Shown in pieces: positions 2,574-24,876 of a stretch of DNA of 24,998 bases. Origin of the DNA: a virus; the IMG/VR virus record IMGVR_UViG_3300042520_000898, positions 1 through 24,998 of that record, one strand, 5' to 3'. The notes below the pieces were generated by a model, which searched no databases, was not told the DNA's origin, and saw only the letters and a list, made by a program, of their open reading frames with translations. The first letter of the stretch is position 1, and every line of letters starts with the position of its first letter. A program made the position numbers and the translations under genes.

Positions 2574-2761
2574 CTTGTTTTTTCCTTAAATTTGTTTGTG
2601 AAGTTATTCTTGTAGGGAACTCCAATGTAATTATGTTGATTGTTCGGTCACACCTTATAAAGAAGGGTATTCATTAATCAACTCTGTCTTGTAATCTTAT
2701 AATAAAAAATAAGATATTTGATAATATATATGTAAATTTTTTAGAAAACTAAAGAAAACTA
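2574..2761 (-). promoter_or_regulatory. Leader/intergenic gap before the scaffold-capsid pair
   Basis: This 188-base gap is the largest non-coding stretch of the window and lies just upstream of the two genes expected to need the highest late expression. It contains an inverted repeat, ATCTTAT at 2694-2700 and ATAAGAT at 2709-2715, with an 8-base A/T loop. No T-run follows the hairpin on the minus strand, so it is a poor intrinsic terminator. Further toward bS21, 2716-2735 is a very A/T-rich run that could hold a promoter. I see no open frame of useful length on either strand. A promoter plus 5' leader, or an mRNA processing or stability element, are the plausible roles; this is inferred from position. 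Confidence 0.3.
2694..2715. repeat. Inverted repeat (7-bp stem, 8-base loop)
   Basis: ATCTTAT at 2694-2700 pairs perfectly with ATAAGAT at 2709-2715. All but one pair are A-T, so the stem is weak. It could be a transcript hairpin between bS21 and the scaffold gene; no U-tract follows it in the direction of transcription. Confidence 0.35.
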
Positions 2762-2938
2762 CTAAAATAGTTTGTTTTTTCTTATAGTTTCTTCTTTTTG
2801 TAACCTCTTTCTTTTAGAAGGTTTGATAAAGTTCTTCCTTTCTCTAAGTTCTTCTATTTGTTTTATGGACTGAACTCTCTTTTTGTAATCTTTTATTGCC
2901 CACTCTATGTTTCCACCTTTAACACTTACTACTAACAT
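2762..2938 (-). CDS. rpsU: Phage-encoded ribosomal protein bS21 homologue
   Basis: A 58-residue basic protein from ATG at 2936-2938 to TAG at 2762-2764, found by reading codons by hand. It starts MLVVSVKGGNIEWAIKDYKK and continues with LRERKNFIKPSKRKRLQKEE (residues 31-50). This matches the bS21 pattern: a short beta start, an N-I/F-[DE]-x-A-[LI]-[KR]-x-[YF]-K-[RK] helix, then the LRxRxxFxKPSxxKR segment and a lysine-rich tail. The ML[IV][IV]xVK start and the Tyr in the DYKK position look more like Bacteroidota bS21 than the proteobacterial form. bS21 sits on the 30S subunit near the anti-Shine-Dalgarno end of 16S rRNA and acts in initiation; several phages are known to carry it. The start is 4 bases after the preceding stop, so it is part of the head operon. 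AGAAGA precedes the ATG. Confidence 0.9.
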   Translation of the reverse strand: MLVVSVKGGNIEWAIKDYKKRVQSIKQIEELRERKNFIKPSKRKRLQKEETIRKNKLF

Positions 2939-2942
2939 TCTT

Positions 2943-3314
2943 CTATTGTAAATTTGTCAACTTGTATTTTGTTGAGTATAATAAAGTTACAACCGTATCT
3001 ATATCGTTTTGTAACCAACTCATTTGTAATTTTTCGTCTTTTCTTAATTTTGCAACTACTGCAATCAATTTATCAAAATATGCAATTACATTTTTGATAT
3101 CATTATTTGTATCTAAACCACTTACCGATTGTAATTTAATTAATCCGTATTGTCCTTGATATGCCTCAACTAAACCATCTACTAAACCACCAATTGTATC
3201 GTAATAGTTTCCCAACGCAATATGTGCTGAAAATGAACCAACACCTTTAACTCCTACATGGAATGAATGTGTTTGTGTTCTACTATGTAATAACAATGAA
3301 GCTAATTGTTCCAC
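2943..3314 (-). CDS. Dps/ferritin-like helical protein, DUF5856-type
   Basis: 123 residues, all-helical in appearance. The N-terminal half has LLHSRTQTHSFHVGV, then GSFSAHIALGNYYDTIGGLVDGLVEAYQG (residues about 8-55). The spacing of His, Asp and Glu is like the first two helices of Dps/ferritin-like four-helix bundles (H..H then H....Y....VD...E). I recognise this as the small DUF5856-like protein often seen in marine T4-like phages; its function is not established. It overlaps the upstream gene by 13 bases and is 4 bases from the bS21 start, so it is co-translated with both. Iron or DNA binding would be inference only. The alternative is a head-core component with a fortuitous four-helix pattern. 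Confidence 0.6.
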   Translation of the reverse strand: MEQLASLLLHSRTQTHSFHVGVKGVGSFSAHIALGNYYDTIGGLVDGLVEAYQGQYGLIKLQSVSGLDTNNDIKNVIAYFDKLIAVVAKLRKDEKLQMSWLQNDIDTVVTLLYSTKYKLTNLQ

Positions 3315-4419: not shown

Positions 4420-5010
4420 TTAATTAAGTTCAATTATAATTTCTCTCATTAAATCTTGTGACCTACACCACTTACCACATTCCTCTGCTATCTTTGCCCA
4501 TTGTTTTGACTCCTGTAAAGGTGCCATAAATGCTCCATGTGTTGATGGGTTTGAAACAAAATCCCACCCTACCAATTCGAAATCTTCTGCTACCATTACG
4601 GTACCATCTCTTAATTCTTTAACTGAACCTAAACCTCTAGATGAAATACCTAAACGAATATTGTTCTTTAATAATTCTTTTAAAATGTTTCCAGATGGTG
4701 TTGAAAGTATTTCCACTACTCCACACACATCATCACCTTCCCAATAGATTTCTCTAATGTTGTGTGATACATTCTTTAAATTAATAACAGGAGATTCAGG
4801 ATGGTCTAATTCACCTAAAGCTCTTCTTTCTTTAATAAGTTGTTGATATTTTTGACACTCTCTTTCTAATATTTCTTTAGGATATCTTCTATTATTTTGA
4901 TTTGGAGCACCTGCTCTTTGAAGAATTCCCTTAACTAAATAAGTTCCATTTTCTTCTTGTTGAAGTTTTGCTTCAAACAAATGTGTTTCAATTAATAATC
5001 CTTTACTCAT
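4420..5010 (-). CDS. 21: Prohead core protease, gp21-like
   Basis: 196 residues, close to T4 gp21 (about 212). The serine protease processes the scaffold and capsid proteins during head maturation. Visible catalytic landmarks are the His in GELDHPES (His70), the Ser in GISSRGLGS (Ser123/124) and the acid in VGWDFVSNPS (Asp150), arranged as in the HK97-like/gp21 prohead protease clan. The N-terminus has the YLVKGILQRAGAPNQNNRRY segment typical of this family (G.L...G..N.N.R.YP). The genes around it are the small core proteins and, further down, gp22 and gp23, its expected substrates. ATG at 5008-5010 overlaps the stop of the upstream gene by one base. Confidence 0.92.
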   Translation of the reverse strand: MSKGLLIETHLFEAKLQQEENGTYLVKGILQRAGAPNQNNRRYPKEILERECQKYQQLIKERRALGELDHPESPVINLKNVSHNIREIYWEGDDVCGVVEILSTPSGNILKELLKNNIRLGISSRGLGSVKELRDGTVMVAEDFELVGWDFVSNPSTHGAFMAPLQESKQWAKIAEECGKWCRSQDLMREIIIELN

Positions 5011-6946: not shown

Positions 6947-8683
6947 CTATTTTGTGTTATCTTCTGTTAAAATAGTCTTTTTATTTCCGTTCATGTCTTT
7001 AAATATCTCTAAATACGAATCTCTTGCTTTGTATTTTACCGAACCTTCTTTTTGTTTAAGGGTTTTAATACCTAATGGGTCTCTACCTTCTGGGTGGTCA
7101 TCTTTACCATATCTAACAGGGTCTTTTGGTCTACCAACACCATCTTCTTCTAGTTCCGATTTTAATCTATCCAATTCTTCTTCTACATTTGTTGCACCAT
7201 CCGTACCTGTTTCTTTTGCAGGGTCTACACCTTGTGTTTCAATTGAGGTTAAACGGAATGTTTGTTTTGTATCATCTAATACCTGTAATGTCATTGTATC
7301 TTGCTCATCTTTTGCAAGTTTCATTACTGCCTCATACATCCATTCTTTAGAGAACATTTTAGTTTGTTGCATTTGTTGAATTAATGCTACTTTAGAAGTG
7401 TATAATTCAACTTGCTCTTGTTCGTAAATTTTTGATGGTATTGTAAGTTCCAATGTAAAATCAGTTAATCTATCATCAGTAATACCTTGTGCATATAAGT
7501 GAACAATTGCTACTTTAGTTAATTCCGAAATCAATACTCTTTGTATTCTTTCAATAGTTTTTGCAAATCTAACATCTTGTGCTGCAAGAGTTGCTTTACC
7601 ATTTACATCTTCTTCATATCCTAAGAATGCTTTTGGAATTTTTAATGCTGCCATTAACTTACCCTTTAAGTAGTTAATATCATCAATCATATTATATTCC
7701 AAACCTTTTAATGTATCAATTGAAGTACCATTATCATTACCACGAACTGGCATGTAATAATCTTCAATAAGGTTTTGCATATTGTACTTTAAATTATAAT
7801 CACCAGTTCTTTCGTCTACAAATGGAACCTTTTTAGAACCATTGATAATTTTTTGCATGTAGTTATCGACCTCATTCGGTGGAATATTACCTACATCAAT
7901 TTTGAATATTCTTTTTTCAGGAGCTCTCATTACTCTATGAATTAACATCGCATCTTCCATCAACATCAATTGTTTCCAAACTCTTCTTGCACCTTCAATC
8001 ATAGATTTTCCGTAAGGTAAAAAGTTTGAATCTGAGTTTAATCTAAAGTGAGCCATTTCATAGTTTTCAAATTCTTTCTTTGGAGTTTGACCATATCCAC
8101 CTGATGGGTTTTGGTATGGTGCGTATATGAATTTAACTCTTTGTGGATTTTCTGGGTCAAAATTTTCAACTCTACTAACTTCGTATGTTGATAATGGCAT
8201 TACATTTACAATACCCAATTTATCTGCTATTTCCAATTGTAAAAAGAAATCACCATATTTTACTAAATTTCTAGTCCATGGCCATAAATTGAATTCTACA
8301 TTAATAATATCGTAAAATAAATTTTCTAATATTTGTTTTATTTGGTCATCTTCATGATGAATTTTTAAAACATTACCCATTTCGTTTCTTGCAGTAGTTT
8401 CATCCGAATATACATCTAATGCCGATGATAGAATCGGGTCCATATCCATAGAATCGTAATCTCTAAACAAGTCAATTCTAACTTGTTGATATGCCATTGA
8501 TGATTGTGTTGCACCCGTACCATAGTTAGTCACTTTCATTTTCATAAAGCGGTCAACTAAGTTTGTGGTCATGTTCTGCCACTCATCGGTATCAACAACC
8601 TTTACACCATCTTGCGTTTTACGGACAATAGTATTTGTTGAAAATAATTTTTGTAACCTACTAAATATTGTTTTATCTGCCAT
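6947..8683 (-). CDS. 20: Portal protein, gp20-like
   Basis: 578 residues (T4 gp20 is 524). The portal dodecamer is the DNA gate at the head vertex and binds the terminase. Diagnostic stretches include YDSMDMDPILSSALDVYSDE (about residues 74-93), then LPYGKSMIEGARRVWKQLML, EDAMLIHRVMRAPEKRIFKI and DVGNIPPNEVDNYM (about 222-280), and the IPKAFLGYEEDVNGKATLAAQD wing/stem block near 347-368; these are highly conserved in gp20-like portals. The C-terminal 100 residues are charged and less conserved. It lies downstream of the terminase and upstream of the prohead protease, as in T4. The leader is A-rich with no Shine-Dalgarno sequence. Confidence 0.95.
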   Translation of the reverse strand: MADKTIFSRLQKLFSTNTIVRKTQDGVKVVDTDEWQNMTTNLVDRFMKMKVTNYGTGATQSSMAYQQVRIDLFRDYDSMDMDPILSSALDVYSDETTARNEMGNVLKIHHEDDQIKQILENLFYDIINVEFNLWPWTRNLVKYGDFFLQLEIADKLGIVNVMPLSTYEVSRVENFDPENPQRVKFIYAPYQNPSGGYGQTPKKEFENYEMAHFRLNSDSNFLPYGKSMIEGARRVWKQLMLMEDAMLIHRVMRAPEKRIFKIDVGNIPPNEVDNYMQKIINGSKKVPFVDERTGDYNLKYNMQNLIEDYYMPVRGNDNGTSIDTLKGLEYNMIDDINYLKGKLMAALKIPKAFLGYEEDVNGKATLAAQDVRFAKTIERIQRVLISELTKVAIVHLYAQGITDDRLTDFTLELTIPSKIYEQEQVELYTSKVALIQQMQQTKMFSKEWMYEAVMKLAKDEQDTMTLQVLDDTKQTFRLTSIETQGVDPAKETGTDGATNVEEELDRLKSELEEDGVGRPKDPVRYGKDDHPEGRDPLGIKTLKQKEGSVKYKARDSYLEIFKDMNGNKKTILTEDNTK

Positions 8684-9962: not shown

Positions 9963-11570
9963 TTACTTAAGTAACCAAGTTAGGTTTTCTATTTCACCTC
10001 TACCCACTTCCATTTCATATGGATTTTGTTTTAGATGACCTGATGAAACAAATCCTGTGTATTGACTTACTTGAGTTGAGTTTAACATTGTCTTTGTCAA
10101 ATCAATTCCTTCTTGTTTTAAACGAAGTGCTGTATTACGAACCCAAAGTCCAATTGCCAATGCCATTGTTAAGTCATCATTATATCCTTTCATTGCTTCC
10201 GCTCTACCGGCAGTCCAAATGAATGTAAATAGTTCATCTATAAGTCTTTGAGAACGAATTAGGATATCTTTACCATTTATGTATGTATCTAAAGTAGAAA
10301 TAATAAGAGGTCTTGTTTTTGATGTTGTACCAAATCCTGCAACCAATTTCTTTTCATCTCTATAAAACTTATTAGACATTTGTTTTTCAACATCGATATA
10401 TTTTAAATCATTACTCATATAGAATAAATTACCATATCCTCTATCAATTACCTGTTGGATAGTTGCCCATCCTACATTTGAGTTTTCTATAATTAATAAT
10501 GCATTATTCCATTCTGTTGATACTGCAACTAAAAAGTTTCCAAAATCTTTTGTTTCAATTTTGCCTCTATATTCTGCAACTTGTGAACTATCTTCGATAT
10601 CAATAACTTGAAATGTGGAATAATCCGAACCATCACCTCTCGCGACATCGGCAACTACCATATATGCTCTATTGTAATTAGGGTGTTCCCATTTCCAATA
10701 ATTTCCGTCAAACCCACTTTTTTCAATCGGGTCCATAACATATGTGTCTTTATACCATGTTAATAATGCTGGGTCGATTACAGTATCTCCTGAACCTACG
10801 AAATCACAATCACACTCTTGTGCTGCACCTTTTACTCCCAATATACGAGTTTGTTCATCTCTCCATGATTGATTTCTTTCAGGATGAACAGTCCAATGTA
10901 AATTTATATTATTAAATCCGTTTGCACCACTCTCACCATCGACCCACATTTTATGGAACCAGTTACCCACACCATTCGGAGTAGATAATACAATTGCAGA
11001 ACCACCCGTTGATAATGTAGATTGTGCCGATAACCAAATTTCATCAATATCTCTAATGAATGCAGCTTCATCCACAACTAACAATGACAATGCTTCCGAA
11101 CGACCCGCGTCTGGAGAACTTGCGATTGCTTTTACTTGTGAACCATTTTTTAATTTAAGGGAAAGTTTATTATCTTCTACTGAACTATTACCACCATCTC
11201 TTAACCATACAGGAAGTAAGTCGTGCATTACTCTTACCTTTTCAACTAAGTTTTTTGCTACAGTTACTTTTGTTGCAATAACCAATGCGTTAAAGTCTTG
11301 GTTAAATAACATTTTCCAAAGAATAAATCCTGCTGATAATGTTGATAAACCCAACTGACGGGATTTAAGAATAATATTTAATCTATTTTCTTTAAAATCC
11401 GTTAAACACTCCTCCTGGAAAGGATAAAGGTGAAAGGGTATTTTTCCTCTCACCGGGTGCTGAATAACACAATACTTCTTCATAAAGTAAATGGGGTCTA
11501 ACGCACATTTACGATATTCTTCAGCTATTATTTCTTTTAATGACTTCTTAGGTTGCCCTTGAACTCCCAT
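9963..11570 (-). CDS. 17: Terminase large subunit, gp17-like
   Basis: 535 residues. The packaging motor ATPase and nuclease. The ATPase domain shows the Walker A-like SRQLGLST (70-77; T4 has a SRQLGKTT), Walker B with catalytic Glu in LLVVDEAAF (163-171) and the coupling motif STPNG (196-200). The RNase H-like nuclease shows a first acidic motif VVADVARGDGSDY (305-317, Asp308), Glu362 in IENSNVGW, and NDDLTMA (464-470). The order and spacing match gp17; length is slightly shorter than T4 (610). Walker A has Leu-Ser instead of Lys-Thr at the end (GLST versus GKTT); the lysine-first variant is at residue 69 (LKSRQ), which agrees with the usual gp17-type deviant Walker A. The stop and start with the upstream lipoprotein-like gene overlap by one base. 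Confidence 0.96.
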   Translation of the reverse strand: MGVQGQPKKSLKEIIAEEYRKCALDPIYFMKKYCVIQHPVRGKIPFHLYPFQEECLTDFKENRLNIILKSRQLGLSTLSAGFILWKMLFNQDFNALVIATKVTVAKNLVEKVRVMHDLLPVWLRDGGNSSVEDNKLSLKLKNGSQVKAIASSPDAGRSEALSLLVVDEAAFIRDIDEIWLSAQSTLSTGGSAIVLSTPNGVGNWFHKMWVDGESGANGFNNINLHWTVHPERNQSWRDEQTRILGVKGAAQECDCDFVGSGDTVIDPALLTWYKDTYVMDPIEKSGFDGNYWKWEHPNYNRAYMVVADVARGDGSDYSTFQVIDIEDSSQVAEYRGKIETKDFGNFLVAVSTEWNNALLIIENSNVGWATIQQVIDRGYGNLFYMSNDLKYIDVEKQMSNKFYRDEKKLVAGFGTTSKTRPLIISTLDTYINGKDILIRSQRLIDELFTFIWTAGRAEAMKGYNDDLTMALAIGLWVRNTALRLKQEGIDLTKTMLNSTQVSQYTGFVSSGHLKQNPYEMEVGRGEIENLTWLLK

Positions 11571-17168: not shown

Positions 17169-17705
17169 TTATTTATTGTATAATTCTGGGTATTCCGTTA
17201 ATATATGAATACCACCATTTTCAATTGCATATTTATAAGATAATTCAACATCTTGCCATGTTTTTAAATCATGTATTTCAATATTTGGACACATTGTTTT
17301 AAATTCTTCAATATAATTTGCTTTATGTTGGTGGCCAGGGTCTAATGGTGTGTCCGCACCTTTACCAACTCTAATAAGTATATTGACTTTGTTTTCCGTC
17401 ATTAATTCATATTTGTCAATGTGATTAACTAATTGATTTGTTGCTGATATAATAAAATCCCATCTTGGGTAGAATGTAATAACTCTTTTTCCAGTCATTG
17501 CCAAACCCAAACTCATACCCATTTGAGTTTCTTCCATAACAGGAACTTCAATCATTTTTTCTTTTGGTACATTTGTTAAAGTTGTACTCATAGGATTTCC
17601 GGCATAAACTATTTGTTGGCCGATGAATATTGTATCTTCCAATTTGGCCAGTTCTGTCATTACATTTATTAATGTATCTTTATATGATATTTCGTTTGTA
17701 TTCAT
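17169..17705 (-). CDS. E1-beta-like ThDP enzyme, pyrimidine-binding (PYR) domain only
   Basis: 178 residues. Similar to the N-terminal domain of 2-oxoacid dehydrogenase E1-beta/transketolase-type proteins: YKDTLINVMTELAKLEDTIF (8-27), IEVPVMEETQMGMSLGLAMT (52-71, where the Glu that activates ThDP is expected), VITFYPRWDF, and an HQHKANYIEEFKTMCPNIEI region. The C-terminal transketolase-like domain found in E1-beta (full length about 325) is missing, and the frame ends cleanly, so it is a minimal PYR-domain subunit. The partner PP-domain subunit is the E1-alpha-like gene at 23705, seven genes away in the same operon. ATGA overlap with the SGNH gene. Likely makes an acyl or ketol unit for a sugar; the exact reaction is unknown. 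Confidence 0.78.
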   Translation of the reverse strand: MNTNEISYKDTLINVMTELAKLEDTIFIGQQIVYAGNPMSTTLTNVPKEKMIEVPVMEETQMGMSLGLAMTGKRVITFYPRWDFIISATNQLVNHIDKYELMTENKVNILIRVGKGADTPLDPGHQHKANYIEEFKTMCPNIEIHDLKTWQDVELSYKYAIENGGIHILTEYPELYNK

Positions 17706-18562
17706 TTTATTTTATTAAATCTATTTGTTGAATTTATATTTTCTATAATATTATTTGCAATCACGTTATGGCATTCTTTTGATATATGTGAATCCATGGG
17801 TGGATTTTTTAAATTTTTAAAATCATTTCTTATAATAAGATTTGAATTTTCTGTTGTTAAATCCTGTATACAATTATATTCATTATCATTATATTTTAAT
17901 GTAATAAATCTTTCATTTAAAAATTTATCATTTTTTATGATATTAACATAATCGGGTGTCCAAGAAAGTAATTTTGTTTTTATACCCATTTTTTCATAAA
18001 AAATAAATTTTTCTTTAATATTATTAACAATATAATTTAATAAATCAACAGATTGCCATTCTTCATATGTTTTATTATTAGATTCCAACCATTCGTTAAA
18101 TATGTCAAAATCTGCCATGTTTAGTTCAAAATCTTTTTTAGGTTTATTATATGCATAACCTGCATTGAAAATATATTCTTTTCCTTTTAATACAAATTTA
18201 AATTTATTTCTATCCGGTTGGCTTGTTTGTAAAATAATATACGCAATATCCTCAAATTTATATTTTTCTTTATAAAAATGATTTCTCATTGGATTATTTT
18301 CAATTTGTAAACAATGGTTTATTAATTCAAATGAAACATCCTCATTACCACCATTTTCTAAATGTACTATTTCAAATGTTTCAAAATAATTTGCAACAAT
18401 TCTGGGGAATCTAATTGTTTTAATAAAATTTAAATGTGAATCAGTATATTCCGATTTTACAAATTGATTATCTTTTGGTAATACTATATTTGGTAATGTA
18501 GAATAGTGATGCAGTCCCTGTCCCCAAGTAAACGAATCTCCTGCGAATATAATTCCATTCAT
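17702..18562 (-). CDS. SGNH/GDSL-family hydrolase
   Basis: 286 residues. Block I is IIFAGDSFTWGQG with nucleophile Ser10; a Gly-Gly-Asn at 71-73 (LENGGNED) fits the oxyanion-hole Asn of block III; the C-terminal PPMDSHIS (about 254-261) supplies the catalytic Asp257/His259 pair of block V. These enzymes hydrolyse or transfer acyl esters, including O-acetyl groups on polysaccharides. There is no signal peptide, so it probably acts in the cytoplasm or on the virion. Placed between a methyltransferase and E1-beta in the sugar operon, it may add or remove an acyl group on the glycan. One-base overlap with the upstream gene, four-base overlap with the downstream gene. Confidence 0.8.
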   Translation of the reverse strand: MNGIIFAGDSFTWGQGLHHYSTLPNIVLPKDNQFVKSEYTDSHLNFIKTIRFPRIVANYFETFEIVHLENGGNEDVSFELINHCLQIENNPMRNHFYKEKYKFEDIAYIILQTSQPDRNKFKFVLKGKEYIFNAGYAYNKPKKDFELNMADFDIFNEWLESNNKTYEEWQSVDLLNYIVNNIKEKFIFYEKMGIKTKLLSWTPDYVNIIKNDKFLNERFITLKYNDNEYNCIQDLTTENSNLIIRNDFKNLKNPPMDSHISKECHNVIANNIIENINSTNRFNKIK

Positions 18563-19185
18563 TATTTAAGTTTTAAAATTATTGTATAAAATAAAGATTT
18601 TCCAGTCCAACCATAATCATTATATTCAACATATTCTATTGTAAAATCATCGTTAGTTAATTCAATAATATCGTTTTCGGTAACACCTTCACAATTTTCA
18701 ACAAGAATTATAACACCATCTTTATTTAAATAATTTTTAACATTTTTGAAAAAATTCTTATGAAAATTCATATTTTCGTCTAATGAAATTAATTCTTCAT
18801 GTTTACTTCTATATCCTCCAGGTCTTATTGTTTTAAAATGTGGTGGGTTACTAATAATTGTATCAATATCATTATTTGCAATCAATTCATTAAATCCATT
18901 TGATTGAATAAATTTAACATTATTTAAATTGTTTGTTTTTATTGTTTCGTTTATATGTTGTAAATTTTCATTGTTAATATCAACTAAATATAATTCATCA
19001 CAATATTTTTTGGCCAACAAGTGGAAACCCATAAATCCAGGGCCTGAACACATTTCCATAATATTTCCTTTCTTAATGAATTTTTTTACGTTTTCACTAT
19101 CCAATGCGTTTACACCAAATGTTGTTCCACCACCATCTAAGTGTGGTTCGTATGAAATTTTAATATTATTTGTTTCAAATATCAT
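18562..19185 (-). CDS. Class I SAM-dependent methyltransferase
   Basis: 207 residues. SAM-binding motif I is NIMEMCSGPGFMGFHLL (41-57) with the expected acidic residue after strand 2 (YLVDINNE, Asp69); NPPH at 113-116 (IISNPPHFK) is the catalytic motif IV type found in N5-Gln, adenine-N6 and some small-molecule N-methyltransferases (PrmC/HemK and MTS-like families). No DNA-recognition domain is evident. In the sugar operon an N- or O-methylation of a sugar is the likeliest job, but NPPH also allows a protein Gln or nucleic-acid target. TAATG junctions on both sides. Confidence 0.8.
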   Translation of the reverse strand: MIFETNNIKISYEPHLDGGGTTFGVNALDSENVKKFIKKGNIMEMCSGPGFMGFHLLAKKYCDELYLVDINNENLQHINETIKTNNLNNVKFIQSNGFNELIANNDIDTIISNPPHFKTIRPGGYRSKHEELISLDENMNFHKNFFKNVKNYLNKDGVIILVENCEGVTENDIIELTNDDFTIEYVEYNDYGWTGKSLFYTIILKLK

Positions 19186-20177
19186 TATGGTTTAGAATTT
19201 GGATTATATAAATGCTTATTTGCTTTATACCACTCAATGGTTTCTTTTAAAGCTTCTTTTATATTTCTCTTTGGTTTCCATCCTAAATCGTTAATCTTTT
19301 TAGATGATAATAATCTAATAGGAATCATTGGTGCTTTGTTATTAACATATTCAATTGGATTTGTATTACCATCTAATTCTTTAATGGTTGCAAGTGTTTC
19401 ATTTACTGTAAACCCTTCTCCATAACATACATTGAAAATATCATATGTATCGTTATTTTCTGCTACAAAGATAAAACCATCTGCCATATCTTCAACATGT
19501 AATAAATCTCTTACTTCCGTGCCATCACCCCAAACAGGAATTGGGTTTAAACCATCTGCTACTTTACGAATATTTGCAGGAGTAACGTGACATTTTTCAA
19601 AATCAAATTTATCATTAGGGCCAAATGCGTTTGAAGGTCTTACAATCAAGCACTGCATTGGTTCGTGAATCTGATTAGAAAAAAAATCACACAACATTTC
19701 ACCATATCTTTTCATACCACCAACTGCTTTATAAACAGGTAGCATTGGTGTAGCATGTATATTCATATCTTCGGTACAAAACTCAGTTCCCATATCAGGA
19801 TAAGTTGTGTTAGATGATATAAATAAAAACTTTCTAACTTTGTTTTTCCAACTTTGTTCCATTAAGTTTACATTCATCTCCACATTTGGAGTAACATGTA
19901 ATAGTGGGTTAAATTTGGTATCTAATGCATTTGATGTGTTTGCTGCACAATGGAATACTACATCCACATCTTTACTGATTAGGTCACAAAACTCTGCAGT
20001 TTGTAAATCTCCTTTGATGTGTTCTACTTCATTCGTTCCTTCGAAATCGTTTCTCAAATCTCTACTGAATGATGTTGAACGAAGGTTTCTATAACCCTTT
20101 TCGTATAGTAATCGTAATAAATGTGAACCTATAAATCCACTTGCTCCTGTAACTAAGACCTTGTCTGTTTTTTTCAT
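19185..20177 (-). CDS. NAD(P)-dependent sugar epimerase/dehydratase (SDR) 2
   Basis: 330 residues, the usual length for extended SDR sugar epimerases. The Rossmann motif is TGASGFIGS (10-18); VVFHCAANTS (74-83) and FLFISSNTTYPD (117-128, catalytic Ser/Thr) follow; RPSNAFGPNDKFDF and VRDLLHVEDMADGF (about 218-231) are the substrate-domain motifs. The catalytic YxxxK is atypical: Lys156 is in VGGMKRYGE, but the residue four before it is Val152, with the nearest upstream Tyr at 149. GDP-fucose synthase-, UDP-glucose 4-epimerase- or dTDP-hexose-type activity cannot be separated from sequence alone. Gap of 9 bases from the upstream glycosyltransferase-like gene. Confidence 0.85.
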   Translation of the reverse strand: MKKTDKVLVTGASGFIGSHLLRLLYEKGYRNLRSTSFSRDLRNDFEGTNEVEHIKGDLQTAEFCDLISKDVDVVFHCAANTSNALDTKFNPLLHVTPNVEMNVNLMEQSWKNKVRKFLFISSNTTYPDMGTEFCTEDMNIHATPMLPVYKAVGGMKRYGEMLCDFFSNQIHEPMQCLIVRPSNAFGPNDKFDFEKCHVTPANIRKVADGLNPIPVWGDGTEVRDLLHVEDMADGFIFVAENNDTYDIFNVCYGEGFTVNETLATIKELDGNTNPIEYVNNKAPMIPIRLLSSKKINDLGWKPKRNIKEALKETIEWYKANKHLYNPNSKP

Positions 20178-20186
20178 AACTTTGTT

Positions 20187-21383
20187 TTAAATATATATTG
20201 TTTCTTTTTTATAATTATTTATTTCATAAAATGCATTATCTTCTAATACCCATTTTATTAATTCTTTTGTTCTATCATTATCTTCTATAATTAATTCATG
20301 AACTCTTTTTTGATTTGCAATTAATCTATCTTTACATTTTAAATAAATTTCATGCATATTCAATTTTAATAATCTTTCAATTTCTTTTGCAATTAAATTA
20401 CATTTTAAATATAAAGGAGTATATTCCATATCAGTACTTGATAAATCATTTATTTCAATTTTATCATATGAATGGTCTATTATATCATCAAACATATCAA
20501 ATCCAAAACTTCTAAAATATTCAATTATTTTAGTATGTCCCAATAAAATTGGAAATTCTAAATTTAAAAATGGTTTTATAGATTTTTCAGTTATAAAATT
20601 TACTTTTGTTGGAATTGTTTCAGCTATTATATTAACATAAGCTTTATTAACAAATTGATTTTGTATTTTAAATCTATTATTAGATTCTTTCCAATTTGGG
20701 TCGTCTATATCTACTTTTAATTCAGGAATTTTTATTGAACGATACTCACATTCTTGTGCACTTAAATAACCAAAATCTTTATATTTTAATAATTTATTAA
20801 CCAATACAATTCTATGTGCTCTCATTGTATTATTTAAACATATGTACAATTTATCTCGTTTATTTTCATTCCATTTTACACCACCAATTATATTAAGACA
20901 TACATCGGTTCCGTTATTTATTTCTATATACTTATGAAATGTGTTATTATTACTATCACAAAAAAATCTAGGACCTGAAAATGGGTATGTAAATATTTCC
21001 CAATCTTGTTGGTCAAAATTTATAACATCTAATGGTGTGATTATTTTTTTTCGCTTATATGAAATATTATTTTCTTTTAAAAATTCACTCCATACTTTAC
21101 ACCTACTATCCAAATTATCAGCTTCTCCACTAAAATCAATCACAAAATCGTCACAAGATAAATTTTTTATTTTTTCAATATCTAGTTCATTTCTTTTACC
21201 ATAATCTAACCAATAACCATGTACGCAAATTATATTATAAAAATTTTTATTTTTTTCTTGGAGTGAATAAAAATTATTTTGCACAGAAATTCCACCATTT
21301 GTTGAAGTAAAAAATGAACAATCATATTTTTCTGATAATGATAATATTGTAAAATTATTGTTTAAATAAGTTTTGTATAACAC
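20187..21383 (-). CDS. Glycosyltransferase-like protein 2 (GT10-like C-terminal motif)
   Basis: 398 residues, beginning with GTG at 21381-21383 that overlaps the preceding TAG (TAGTG). The conserved core is KLYICLNNTMRAHR (178-191) and, near 250-310, YVNIIAETIPTKVNFITEK followed by PFLNLEFPILLG and EYFRSFGFDMFDDIIDHSYD. The E[TN]-x(n)-[FY][IV]TEK layout with a later P.[IL].G is reminiscent of the nucleotide-sugar region of GT10 fucosyltransferases. It is a paralogue of the protein at 22381 and its N-terminal 170 residues are unlike it. I infer a glycosyltransferase; the sugar donor and acceptor are unknown. Confidence 0.6.
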   Translation of the reverse strand: MLYKTYLNNNFTILSLSEKYDCSFFTSTNGGISVQNNFYSLQEKNKNFYNIICVHGYWLDYGKRNELDIEKIKNLSCDDFVIDFSGEADNLDSRCKVWSEFLKENNISYKRKKIITPLDVINFDQQDWEIFTYPFSGPRFFCDSNNNTFHKYIEINNGTDVCLNIIGGVKWNENKRDKLYICLNNTMRAHRIVLVNKLLKYKDFGYLSAQECEYRSIKIPELKVDIDDPNWKESNNRFKIQNQFVNKAYVNIIAETIPTKVNFITEKSIKPFLNLEFPILLGHTKIIEYFRSFGFDMFDDIIDHSYDKIEINDLSSTDMEYTPLYLKCNLIAKEIERLLKLNMHEIYLKCKDRLIANQKRVHELIIEDNDRTKELIKWVLEDNAFYEINNYKKETIYI

Positions 21384-22381
21384 TATAATCTACTTTTATA
21401 TTCTAAAATTGATTTTTTTAATCCTTCTTTTAAAGTTGTTTGTGGTAAGATACCATATTTTTTTTGTTTATCTGCACCTAAACATCTAATTGGGTCACCA
21501 TTTGTTTTTGTAGAATCCCATGTAATAAGTTTTGTTTTACCTGTGATTTCTTTATAACATTCAACAATGGTTTCAATTGTTTCTTTAATAGTTACTGCTT
21601 CTGCACATCCAAAGTTAATAATATCACTAACTTCTTTTTTAACTACATCAATTGCAGCTTGTGCAACATCATCACCAAATACAAAGTCTCTTTTAGATGA
21701 ACCATCTCCCCAACATACCATTTCTTCACCTTCTACATTAAATAATTTCCAAATATTAGAACTAATAACAGTTGCATCTTGTGCAAAGTTATCATTGATA
21801 CCATATATGTTTGAAGGTCTTATAACTGTCCAATTTTTCCAACCATATTGAACTCTCAACGAATCCAATGTCAATTCACCCATTCTTTTTGTCCAACCCG
21901 GATGCCAATCCAAACGAGATGGAGTAGATGCCCAAGTTTCTTCTTGTGACCAAATATCTTCTTCATTCATTACTTCTGCCGGCTTATAAACACCAACTGA
22001 TGAAAGATATACAAACCAATCAACCTTTGCATCAAACGATGCTTTAATCATATTAGTATTGAACATCAACATTGGGAATAGGTAATCTGCAGGTTGAGTT
22101 GATGACCTTGCTGGTGAACCTTTTACACCTGCAATATGTAATACGATATCTATTTTTTCATCTGCAAATAAACTTTCACAATGAGAAAGATATGTTAAGT
22201 CTGTTTTTACCAATTCCAATCTATCATTATATTGTCCTTTTAGAAAGTTTAAGTTTTCACTAAATCTAAGGTCTACTGCGTATACTTTTGCAGCACCTTC
22301 TTCTAAACATTTTTTAACTGCCGGCAATCCAACCAATCCGTTTGCTCCGGTTATAATAACTTTTTTTCCTGTAAATTCCAT
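21383..22381 (-). CDS. NAD(P)-dependent sugar epimerase/dehydratase (SDR) 1
   Basis: 332 residues. Rossmann motif TGANGLVG (11-18), IVLHIAGVKGSPA (79-91), VYLSSVGVYKPAE (124-136, catalytic Ser region), then HPGWTKRMGEL (160-170) and VIRPSNIYGINDNF plus KRDFVFGDDVAQA (about 231-243). Lys165 matches the catalytic Lys, but the position four before it, normally Tyr, is Pro161. RPSNIYG and KRDFVFGDDVA are typical of epimerase/GDP-fucose synthase-like enzymes. It shares operon logic with SDR 2 but is not a near-identical copy. Its start overlaps the preceding stop (TAATG). Confidence 0.85.
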   Translation of the reverse strand: MEFTGKKVIITGANGLVGLPAVKKCLEEGAAKVYAVDLRFSENLNFLKGQYNDRLELVKTDLTYLSHCESLFADEKIDIVLHIAGVKGSPARSSTQPADYLFPMLMFNTNMIKASFDAKVDWFVYLSSVGVYKPAEVMNEEDIWSQEETWASTPSRLDWHPGWTKRMGELTLDSLRVQYGWKNWTVIRPSNIYGINDNFAQDATVISSNIWKLFNVEGEEMVCWGDGSSKRDFVFGDDVAQAAIDVVKKEVSDIINFGCAEAVTIKETIETIVECYKEITGKTKLITWDSTKTNGDPIRCLGADKQKKYGILPQTTLKEGLKKSILEYKSRL

Positions 22382-23703
22382 TATATGTGTTTTTTTAAAT
22401 TTTCTACAAATACATTTTCTTTTTTAGTTGCCCATAATAAAATATGATTTCTATTATATACCAAAATATCTTTTATAGATAAATACCACTCATGTATTAT
22501 ATCTAAATCCAACTTTGATAATCTTTCTATTTCATTACAAATTGCAATATATCTTTCACCATCATTTTCTATTTCATCATAACTTTCATCAATAAATCCA
22601 TCAAATGTCTTAAATCCTAAAGAACGAAAATATTTTAAATAACCACAAGCTCCAACTAATATAAATGGTTGCAATGTTGTGATTGGATTTATGACCTTTT
22701 CTGTTATAAAAATATCTTTTTCAAAATTTGTTTCAGTAACTATGTAAATATATGAATCTAAAAATACTTCCCTCTTATAAGCTTTACCACATTCAAATCC
22801 TTGTTTATCATCACTTCCATGTGTATCTATTTCCATTATTAATTTTGATGCAAATCCATCTGCACTATTTTTTATATCATTATCAAATGTTTTATTATTT
22901 GTAATATATAACCGATGCTTTCCTTCATTATGAAATAAAAACGATGCATATAATTTATCCCATAAATTTTTACTTTCAAAAAAACAACCCATTGTATATC
23001 TAAAATCTTTATTTGAATTTCTATTTAAACAAACAAAATGTTTATTTCTTTTTATATCAATTTCGTTTTCTCTAATCCACTTTGTTTCATATCCCAATGT
23101 ATAATTTGGTTCTGATTTTAGTGATGCCATTCTTTGTGCAAACCCAATTAATAAATTATCTTCAAAATAAAAATTATAATTTTTAAATCTTTCATCTTGT
23201 TCAAATAAATTGGAAGTTCCCATAAAAAATACAAAATGTTTTTTTAAATCTAAACCCATGCTATTTACTTCAATTTCTAATTTTTTAATAAAATTAAACG
23301 AATTTAAAAATGGTTCATGTGAATAATTTATTGCAAAAATCAATCTATCTTCTAACGCTAATTTAATAGCTTCTTTTGAAATATTTTTTATATTAAATGA
23401 ATATTCTATACCATCATCTGTTATAAGATGTCCTCCTATTAAATAATTTATTTGACTAAATATTTCTATTGGATATACATATTTTTCATCATCTTTAACA
23501 TTATTTATATATTCGTGATTTCCTATTGGTGAAGAATTATACCACCATATATTTGAATGAAATGTTCTAAATTGAAATTTATTTTGGTTCGCAGTATTAT
23601 AATCTCCATCATTTTTTTCAAAATAATCTATTAAAGTTTTATCCCATAAATTTGGATATGGGTGATTTCTTTTTTGGTCGTAATTATCGTAAATAAATTT
23701 CAT
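22381..23703 (-). CDS. Glycosyltransferase-like protein 1 (GT10-like C-terminal motif)
   Basis: 440 residues. N-terminal half (1-210) is aromatic- and Asn-rich, with no recognised motif. The C-terminal core is KHFVCLNRNSNKDFRYTMG (221-239), then YIVTETNFEKDIFITEKVIN (320-339), QPFILVGACGYLKYFRSLGF (345-364) and FDGFIDESYDEIE (367-379). TETN...FITEK is close to the EN...YVTEK signature of GT10-type fucosyltransferases and of related phage proteins. It shares the ITEK...YFRSxGFxxFDxxID-x-SYDxIE block with the protein at 20187. Likely a cytoplasmic sugar transferase acting with the nucleotide-sugar enzymes around it. The E1-alpha stop is one base upstream of its ATG. Confidence 0.6.
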   Translation of the reverse strand: MKFIYDNYDQKRNHPYPNLWDKTLIDYFEKNDGDYNTANQNKFQFRTFHSNIWWYNSSPIGNHEYINNVKDDEKYVYPIEIFSQINYLIGGHLITDDGIEYSFNIKNISKEAIKLALEDRLIFAINYSHEPFLNSFNFIKKLEIEVNSMGLDLKKHFVFFMGTSNLFEQDERFKNYNFYFEDNLLIGFAQRMASLKSEPNYTLGYETKWIRENEIDIKRNKHFVCLNRNSNKDFRYTMGCFFESKNLWDKLYASFLFHNEGKHRLYITNNKTFDNDIKNSADGFASKLIMEIDTHGSDDKQGFECGKAYKREVFLDSYIYIVTETNFEKDIFITEKVINPITTLQPFILVGACGYLKYFRSLGFKTFDGFIDESYDEIENDGERYIAICNEIERLSKLDLDIIHEWYLSIKDILVYNRNHILLWATKKENVFVENLKKHI

Positions 23704-23704
23704 A

Positions 23705-24334
23705 TTAAAATGCTATCCATTTACCTGTTCCGTAATGTGGAAATTTTGATTCGTATGAATAATATATAACATCATCGGGTATTTCTCTTTTTTTATTCCA
23801 AGTTGCTTCGGTTGGAGTATAGGTTGATACTCCATTATCTTCCACCACAAATACAATTGGTAAATCAAAGTTTTTTGCGTATTTGTGCACTTCATAAAAT
23901 ATACCACTTTCAAAAGACATGTCACCAATAAATACAAATACTTTTTCATCACTACCTTTTTCTTTAATTCCCATTGCAACTCCCAATGCTATTGATAATG
24001 TGCCACCCACAATTGCAGATGAATAAAACTTTTCATTTACCTTGCAAAGAGTGATTGATTTTCCTTTAAGAATTTCTTCTTCAATCCAAACAGGACACAC
24101 TTCTTTTAATAATGCATGGTAGTGAGAACGCCATGTACTAAAAACCCAATCCGAAGTTTTAATTCGTTTGAATATTTCAATCAATTGTTCTTCATTGCCA
24201 TTTGATAAATGAATCGGGCCTCTTATTTTTGCATCTTCCCAATGCTTTACTATTAAATTTTCAAAATCAATTAAAGATTCCTTTGTTTGTTGAATATCTC
24301 TTACTATTGGATATTGTTCTAAATTTTTTATCAT
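23705..24334 (-). CDS. E1-alpha-like ThDP enzyme, diphosphate-binding (PP) domain only
   Basis: 209 residues from the ATG at 24332-24334, which forms an ATGA overlap with the RfbC-like stop; an in-frame ATG at 24400 would overlap the RfbC-like gene by 70 bases and is less likely. It matches E1-alpha/transketolase PP domains: STWRSHYHALLKE (67-79), IVGGTLSIALGVAMGIK (108-124) and the ThDP motif starting GDMSFESGIFYEVHKYA (137-153) and ending LPIVFVVEDNG (158-168). Asp138 and Asn167 are 29 apart, the spacing of the Mg2+ ligands in E1-alpha; the usual GDG is GDM and ENN is EDN. About 120-150 residues shorter than bacterial E1-alpha. Its PYR partner is the gene at 17169. Confidence 0.8.
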   Translation of the reverse strand: MIKNLEQYPIVRDIQQTKESLIDFENLIVKHWEDAKIRGPIHLSNGNEEQLIEIFKRIKTSDWVFSTWRSHYHALLKEVCPVWIEEEILKGKSITLCKVNEKFYSSAIVGGTLSIALGVAMGIKEKGSDEKVFVFIGDMSFESGIFYEVHKYAKNFDLPIVFVVEDNGVSTYTPTEATWNKKREIPDDVIYYSYESKFPHYGTGKWIAF

Positions 24335-24876
24335 CTGTCTCTTTTTTGTAATATTGGGTTTGTTGTTGGCCATTCCATTTGATATTCGGGGTCGTTCCAT
24401 TTTACTACACCTTGCTCATCTGCATCCACATAACCATCTTTATAAAATAAGTTATAATGAAACATACAATCGGTTAATGCGTAGTGTCCGTTTGCAAACC
24501 CCGGTGGTACTAGAACTTGGTTTCTATTTCTTTCGGATATAATAAATGCTTCCCACTCTCCTGATGTTGGTGAATTTAATCTCATATCTAAAACGACTAA
24601 ATAAATATCACCTACTGCAGCTTGAACCAATTTCCACGTCTTACTATCCCAATGTAATCCTCTCAATACACCTTTGTATGATTTTGAAAACCTACCATGA
24701 ATACTAATCTCACTTTTGTCATAGTGTATTTGTGTCATTACAGGATGTTCTTCCGAATGAAAAGTTGTAAATATCTCACCTCTGTATTCTCTATAAATTG
24801 ATGGAGTATATGTTGGTACTTCATAACCAAATTTTTTCGATGGAGTAATTTGAAACTCATCCCATTTGTTACTCAT
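24331..24876 (-). CDS. rfbC: dTDP-4-dehydrorhamnose 3,5-epimerase-like protein (RfbC/RmlC family)
   Basis: 181 residues, the standard length for RmlC (about 180). The cupin-like fold signature is present: YREYRGEIFTTFH (28-40), GVLRGLHWDSKTWKLVQAAVGDIYLVVLDMR spanning 69-99 with His75 matching the catalytic His of RGLHxQ, SPTSGEWEA (102-110), VLVPPGFANGHYALTD (121-136), and GVVKWNDPEYQMEWP (156-170). The family inverts C3 and C5 of 4-keto-6-deoxy nucleotide sugars. Trp-Asp replaces the frequent Trp-Gln/Gln after RGLH, so substrate may differ from dTDP-4-keto-6-deoxyglucose. It shares one base of spacing with the upstream partial gene and an ATGA overlap with the E1-alpha-like gene. Confidence 0.88.
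   Translation of the reverse strand: MSNKWDEFQITPSKKFGYEVPTYTPSIYREYRGEIFTTFHSEEHPVMTQIHYDKSEISIHGRFSKSYKGVLRGLHWDSKTWKLVQAAVGDIYLVVLDMRLNSPTSGEWEAFIISERNRNQVLVPPGFANGHYALTDCMFHYNLFYKDGYVDADEQGVVKWNDPEYQMEWPTTNPILQKRDR

Follow-up and report, generated by a model that had tools for sequence, protein, structure and literature searches.

Genes for the ribosomal protein bS21 are already known among the head genes of phages. Chen et al. (2022; PMC9723584) describe myoviruses in which bS21 lies among the genes for TerL, portal, prohead protease and capsid and is expressed late. They predict Bacteroidetes hosts, propose late substitution into the ribosome as a means of takeover, and also raise packaging of the protein. 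Mizuno et al. (2019; PMC6375957) found viral bS21 mainly in aquatic viruses and under purifying selection, with temperate signature genes in 3 of 1310 bS21-encoding viruses. Mass spectrometry detected a pelagiphage bS21 within ribosomes of E. coli, and E. coli ribosomes with phage bS21 had about 5% activity. The tested protein comes from another lineage than the one described here, and the portion of that paper available to us makes no statement on Tyr54. In F. johnsoniae, whose ribosome is PDB entry 7JIL (PMC9723584), bS21 has Tyr54 and the autoregulated rpsU gene carries a strong Shine-Dalgarno (SD) sequence. In this organism strong-SD reporters are translated more when bS21 carries Y54A or lacks its C-terminal end (McNutt et al., PMC9976891). 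Against this background, the present locus stands out by an arginine at the Tyr54 place, a bS21 gene on the strand of the operon, and an adjoining RNA.

The window (the whole stretch of viral DNA analysed, 24,998 nucleotides), which belongs to a large tailed phage, contains a real gene at 2762-2938 that encodes bS21. On the minus strand these coordinates fit a 58-codon open reading frame exactly; the plus-strand reading is interrupted by stops. The preliminary description, made from the sequence before any database search, had read the frame as a complete 58-residue bS21, and both this reading and the motifs it quoted proved correct. PF01165 matches the protein at 42.2 bits (gathering cut-off 27, E 6.7e-11), its single match in the whole window, the equivalog TIGR00030 at 35.0 bits (cut-off 28.95, E 9.4e-9) and phrog_21469, 'ribosomal protein S21', at 5.8e-5. 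The best two solved chains, 9i5v and 7jil, are both bS21. The phage protein resembles F. johnsoniae bS21 in core sequence and perhaps in a two-helix layout, as predicted by an AlphaFold model (helices H11-35 and H42-57; pLDDT 78.4, pTM 0.41); Foldseek with this model gave one insignificant match, a mitoribosome entry (E 8.2).

The window's head genes from terminase to capsid share the minus strand with bS21, and the head-operon position claimed for it earlier holds. They comprise the terminase large subunit (9963-11570; phrog_2, 1.3e-45), the T4-type portal (6947-8683; PF07230, 1.6e-69), the prohead protease (Peptidase_S77, 4420-5010; PF03420, 1.9e-29), a scaffold-like protein (1320-2573) and the major capsid protein (1-1299, cut by the window end; phrog_138, 9.2e-47). 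The scaffold-like protein, acidic and 417 residues long, is named from position and composition; at the limits used, neither Pfam nor PHROG had a match for it. The placement 'between protease and scaffold' was right as to order, but four small genes intervene between protease and bS21; the scaffold gene lies 188 nt beyond it. The upstream gene (2943-3314, minus strand; DUF5856, 5.4e-14; phrog_858, 1.4e-17) ends with a stop codon at 2943-2945, and the bS21 start codon lies 4 nt past it. In the phages of Chen et al. (PMC9723584) bS21 and the head genes occupy opposite strands, whereas in the window clade they are co-directional. Microcystis phage Mel-JY01 (PP395634) likewise has a same-strand rpsU between prohead protease and capsid genes, together with a related scaffold leader RNA. 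The position within the operon suggests late expression of bS21. Gene order would also be the argument for a head-associated role, in which a basic RNA-binding protein is packaged in the virion, as Chen et al. too considered, or acts with the scaffold. The ordinary bS21 score over the whole length of what is, as bS21, a ribosomal protein makes such a role highly improbable.

A scan of IMG/VR viral contigs gave 79 bS21 loci at 68-100% identity; the frame is complete in 75, and a contig end truncates it in the other 4. Among the best 80 of 289 protease-bearing contigs, which are close relatives by selection, a same-strand bS21 is present in all 52 that extend more than 1,867 nt past the protease; in the 28 shorter ones it was seen in 8 and not in 20. 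The frame is therefore conserved in 52 of 52 testable close relatives, a check that the preliminary description had set. Across 56 distinct 58-codon genes dN/dS is 0.111, indicating purifying selection, and residues 50-58 show zero nonsynonymous differences although pS is 0.170; the count covers 58-residue variants, leaving out lineages with other C-terminal ends. bS21s of other lengths end in KYNN, KHSL or KNQKDLGFL. In a 20-row alignment (A1) the motif ETIRKN is kept save for one I-to-K change, and a wider circle of relatives has EAKRKN or KAIRKN instead, the Arg always being retained. The phage bS21 is probably functional and vertically inherited within this T4-like clade. In one locus (L024, 2457-2732; L174 is the same contig) bS21 is extended by 18 residues owing to the loss of its stop codon, together with the leader's first half.

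When residues are counted without gaps from FIKPS (FxKPS), Arg53 of the window protein, whose sole tyrosine is Y18, stands where F. johnsoniae has Tyr54. The tail thus has no tyrosine and the Bacteroidia residue is lost, as had been noticed from the sequence. Among 89 distinct phage bS21s this place holds Arg in 79, Tyr in 5, His in 1 and Lys in 1; of the 3 unread, two are cut by the contig end and one (L400) was misanchored by the script and has Arg by eye. Arg accordingly occupies 79 of 86 readable proteins (75 of 82 before loci L382-L406 were added), in a set that is no survey because it was mostly found via the window's own protein, protease and leader. In Chen et al. (PMC9723584), by comparison, residue 54 is aromatic in 61 of 61 bS21s. 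In 77 of the 79 Arg-type tails an aromatic residue (Phe, Tyr, Trp or His), the C-terminal Phe being the most frequent, occurs further along, so that the missing tail tyrosine does not prove a free anti-SD. We consider that the Arg tail probably positions the 3' tail of 16S rRNA unlike the Tyr54 tail of the host.

Arginine could also simply mirror the host, if the bS21 of the host lineages itself has Arg there. Bacterial loci with mostly Flavobacterium titles have Tyr in 80 of 80 cases. A sample across the phylum gave 28 loci with Tyr (23 distinct) and, in favour of mirroring, 25 with Arg (25 distinct) of 53, although this is not a frequency, since the sample consists of best hits with one genome in twice. 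The phage core (residues 1-41) is much nearer to Tyr54-type than to Arg-type bacterial bS21 (mean score 85.9 versus 54.4), which argues against mirroring; the tail is not clearly nearer to either (21.3 versus 24.7). A tree of host and phage bS21, which the preliminary description had asked for, also speaks against it, in that Arg-type proteins of SD-poor and SD-using phages join (97/83) in a part of the tree containing Tyr-type bacteria, on a short alignment (69 rows, 67 columns) with several long branches. Taken together, these data make host mirroring unlikely. The tree does not establish one origin, since the phage label needs four changes. As to a bacterial donor of the phage gene, a scan of bacterial genome contigs with the phage profile yielded no relative; the second scan, with a Flavobacterium query in place of the profile, gave the 80 Tyr-type loci above. 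A bacterial genome (L293, G129:C1:1660847-1661014) encodes bS21 three times, and the KQ loop of one copy resembles that of the phages, perhaps through a prophage or an old transfer. No phage bS18 was found in 10 phage records.

SD use was measured as the duplex energy of the -20 to -3 stretch with the 16S tail, against shuffles, first-ATG starts being assigned by script. The excess is -2.43 kcal/mol in T4 (37 contexts) and -1.84 in Mel-JY01 (35), and 0.04 in Flavobacterium phage immuto (43), -0.13 in the window (20) and -0.12 in a 202-kb relative, G001 (159). A Flavobacterium chromosome control (17 contexts) was too small and was left out of the comparison. Arg-type loci overall give -0.34 (747 contexts). 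With stricter de-duplication and the scaffold leaders set apart the value is -0.18 kcal/mol (479 contexts), small and non-zero; the 18 scaffold-leader contexts give -2.49. Gene starts of Bacteroidota are SD-poor and A-rich, and so are those of the phage clade. Portal identity is 47% to Flavobacterium phages and 50% to a phage recorded on Microcystis; judging from the portal identities and the SD-poor genes, the clade probably infects Bacteroidota.

Of 13 gene families tested, the capsid gene lying outside the test, the scaffold gene alone shows an SD-like site as a rule (mean of -5.3 kcal/mol over 25 contexts, of which 92% are at or below -5); the protease gene ranks second (28% of 65 contexts). 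In the window the site, recognized from the sequence and this per-family test, is AAGGA at 2583-2587 on the minus strand, 9 nt ahead of the scaffold start codon. It is a weak SD, about -5 kcal/mol versus a mean of -19.6 for host rpsU (80 of 80 bacterial loci at or below -13), and it is lost in the L213 (G001) and L221 leader types. The phage bS21 gene has a mean of -1.7 kcal/mol (49 contexts, 3 at or below -5). The strong Bacteroidia-type rpsU SD, as in F. johnsoniae, is thus absent from it, and the gene should escape the host's SD-based autoregulation. Six sister phage loci with Arg at the site use SDs (62 contexts, -1.74; per locus -0.32 to -2.48), so that the Arg tail occurs both with and without SD use. 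These sister phages (L302, L334, L337, L365, L370 and L373) have the same leader and a long C-terminal extension of bS21, and probably have other hosts.

The preliminary description had proposed a phage-modified 30S with altered start selection late in infection. In the obvious form of this idea, the Arg tail would free the anti-SD and thereby steer late initiation towards phage mRNAs that carry an SD. The effect of Y54A and truncated bS21 on strong-SD translation (PMC9976891), the prevalence of Arg in phage bS21 and the conserved AAGGA of the neighbouring scaffold gene are all in keeping with such release. However, genes of the clade other than the scaffold gene are almost without SD signal and would not benefit as a group if the anti-SD were exposed. 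The scaffold SD itself is weak, two leader types lack it, and most Arg-type tails have a later aromatic residue. Altered start selection by this route is unsupported, and we regard it as distinctly unlikely. A modified 30S as such remains the leading hypothesis, already in print (PMC9723584); its anti-SD-release form is weakened, but the question behind it is sharpened.

Because the Y54A-type effect aids strong SDs and the phage genes are SD-poor, we favour a late replacement of bS21 that keeps the 30S replete for SD-less initiation in a T4-like clade probably infecting Bacteroidota, a reading to which we give a probability of roughly 0.5. The head operon would yield phage bS21 without an SD, its start probably being coupled to the upstream stop codon 4 nt away, and the protein would stand outside SD-based rpsU autoregulation. 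It would most likely exchange into the host 30S late in infection, a step also proposed by Chen et al., and would compete there with host bS21; the exchanged 30S would still be able to start on late phage mRNAs that have no SD. Translation does not necessarily profit from incorporation, given the roughly 5% activity seen in E. coli (PMC6375957). That near-inactivity, like the missing autoregulatory SD, could instead point to host shut-off, with phage bS21 making the 30S poor on host mRNAs or saturating it against host bS21. Phage starts, like those of Bacteroidota genes, are SD-poor and A-rich, and a general block would strike both; moreover, the operon position suggests late expression. Shut-off is in our view quite unlikely. 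The clade is a natural test case: a Bacteroidia-like bS21 core is combined with a changed anti-SD-burial residue and SD-poor genes. Unmasking of the anti-SD and keeping the ribosome replete can be told apart here, as they cannot in clades that have Tyr54.

Between bS21 and the scaffold gene lies a 188-nt leader (2574-2761, minus strand), conserved across 58 distinct leaders. Within it, 2585-2682 on the minus strand form a structured RNA with helices P1, P2 and P3. It scores 104 bits (E 1.2e-15) against covariance model R1, in which the window row is itself included. The helices were drawn by hand on the 38-leader alignment itself (A3). The 58 representatives were reduced to 42 by identity, and 36 of these with the window and Mel-JY01 make up A3, which omits L026, L073, L077, L163, L165 and L394; L050, L052 (broken off inside P3) and L325 were left out of the leader set. 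The 19 pairs of the three helices are paired in 97.0% of cells over the 38 leaders, with two-sided changes in 12 pairs (59 cells). None of 500 shuffles reached the pairing, two-sided-change or covariation values of the leader, and its 23 further pair types were reached in 36 of 500. Shifting the partner columns by 1-3 reduces pairing to 30-55%. The single-sequence fold is unremarkable (z -0.77).

In Rfam 15 the leader RNA had no convincing match, and no published description of it turned up in literature listings and openings of abstracts or in the available portions of PMC2864571, PMC8040213 and PMC9004378. It is a candidate new RNA family of T4-like phages and, for a widespread aquatic group of these, a concrete candidate for a new regulatory RNA. 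A single strong R1 copy is present in 13 of 14 viral records and in Mel-JY01, a model member, most of the 16 records having been chosen for holding the leader; five records have a weak second match (E 0.1-0.9). R1 had no match in 198 bacterial genomes, searched with stricter filters and few candidates scored per genome, and none in phage immuto. There, two hairpins of similar layout precede the scaffold gene (L269 25470-25580), with no match to the RNA model.

The phage leader recalls RpsF_leader (RF02893), the bS6:bS18 operator described in PMC10931766 (a review) and PMC4647458: in both, a CCG on the 3' strand separates an outer stem from an inner hairpin. However, RF02893, which found E. coli at 2.8e-25 as a control, had no match to the phage leader up to E 10, and the CCG is missing in Mel-JY01. 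Mel-JY01 also differs from the window clade in its SD-using genes and in its bS21, which is extended at the N-terminus and has Lys at the Tyr54 place. It is conceivable, though very improbable, that the Arg-tail bS21 remodels the bS21-bS18-bS6 pocket and that the leader RNA, with its CCG internal loop and SD-like site, makes the scaffold mRNA a preferred client of the remodelled 30S in a late translation switch.

The leader pattern demands GAATAC and GTGACCGAACAA, whose invariance in pattern-found rows is thus by construction; TGACCGAACAA is invariant, free of pattern bias, in the 58 leaders to which the bS21 or protease searches led. A strict tie between leader and bS21 is refuted. Among 106 pattern loci (L301-L406, several of them contigs already fetched under other names) bS21 lies within 2.5 kb upstream in 64, co-directional in every one, and is not seen there in 42; in the subset L301-L381 it is found at 51 of 81. 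For 21 of those 42 loci the contig reaches 1,000 nt or more upstream, and two of these 21 look like chance pattern matches (L325, of unrelated sequence, and L372, from a record without R1). In a 252-kb record (G307) bS21 is located elsewhere than the leader. A short upstream reading frame in the leader (ATGAATACC...TGA) was rejected, as its frame is not kept among the 58 representatives: open lengths are 4, 5, 6, 8, 13, 16, 22, 29, 42 and 45 codons, and 2 of the 58 have no ATG.

A hairpin at window 2694-2715 (minus strand) reads TCTTA..TAAGA, and TCCCA..TGGGA in relatives, with changes on both sides; in some relatives it looks like a terminator and could mark the end of the bS21 operon. At the other end of the window, genes for sugar-nucleotide and transketolase-like enzymes, among them epimerases and an RfbC-like one, form a block at 17169-24876; they are named from reading their translations, and 17169-17705 and 23705-24400 seem to be one enzyme split in two.
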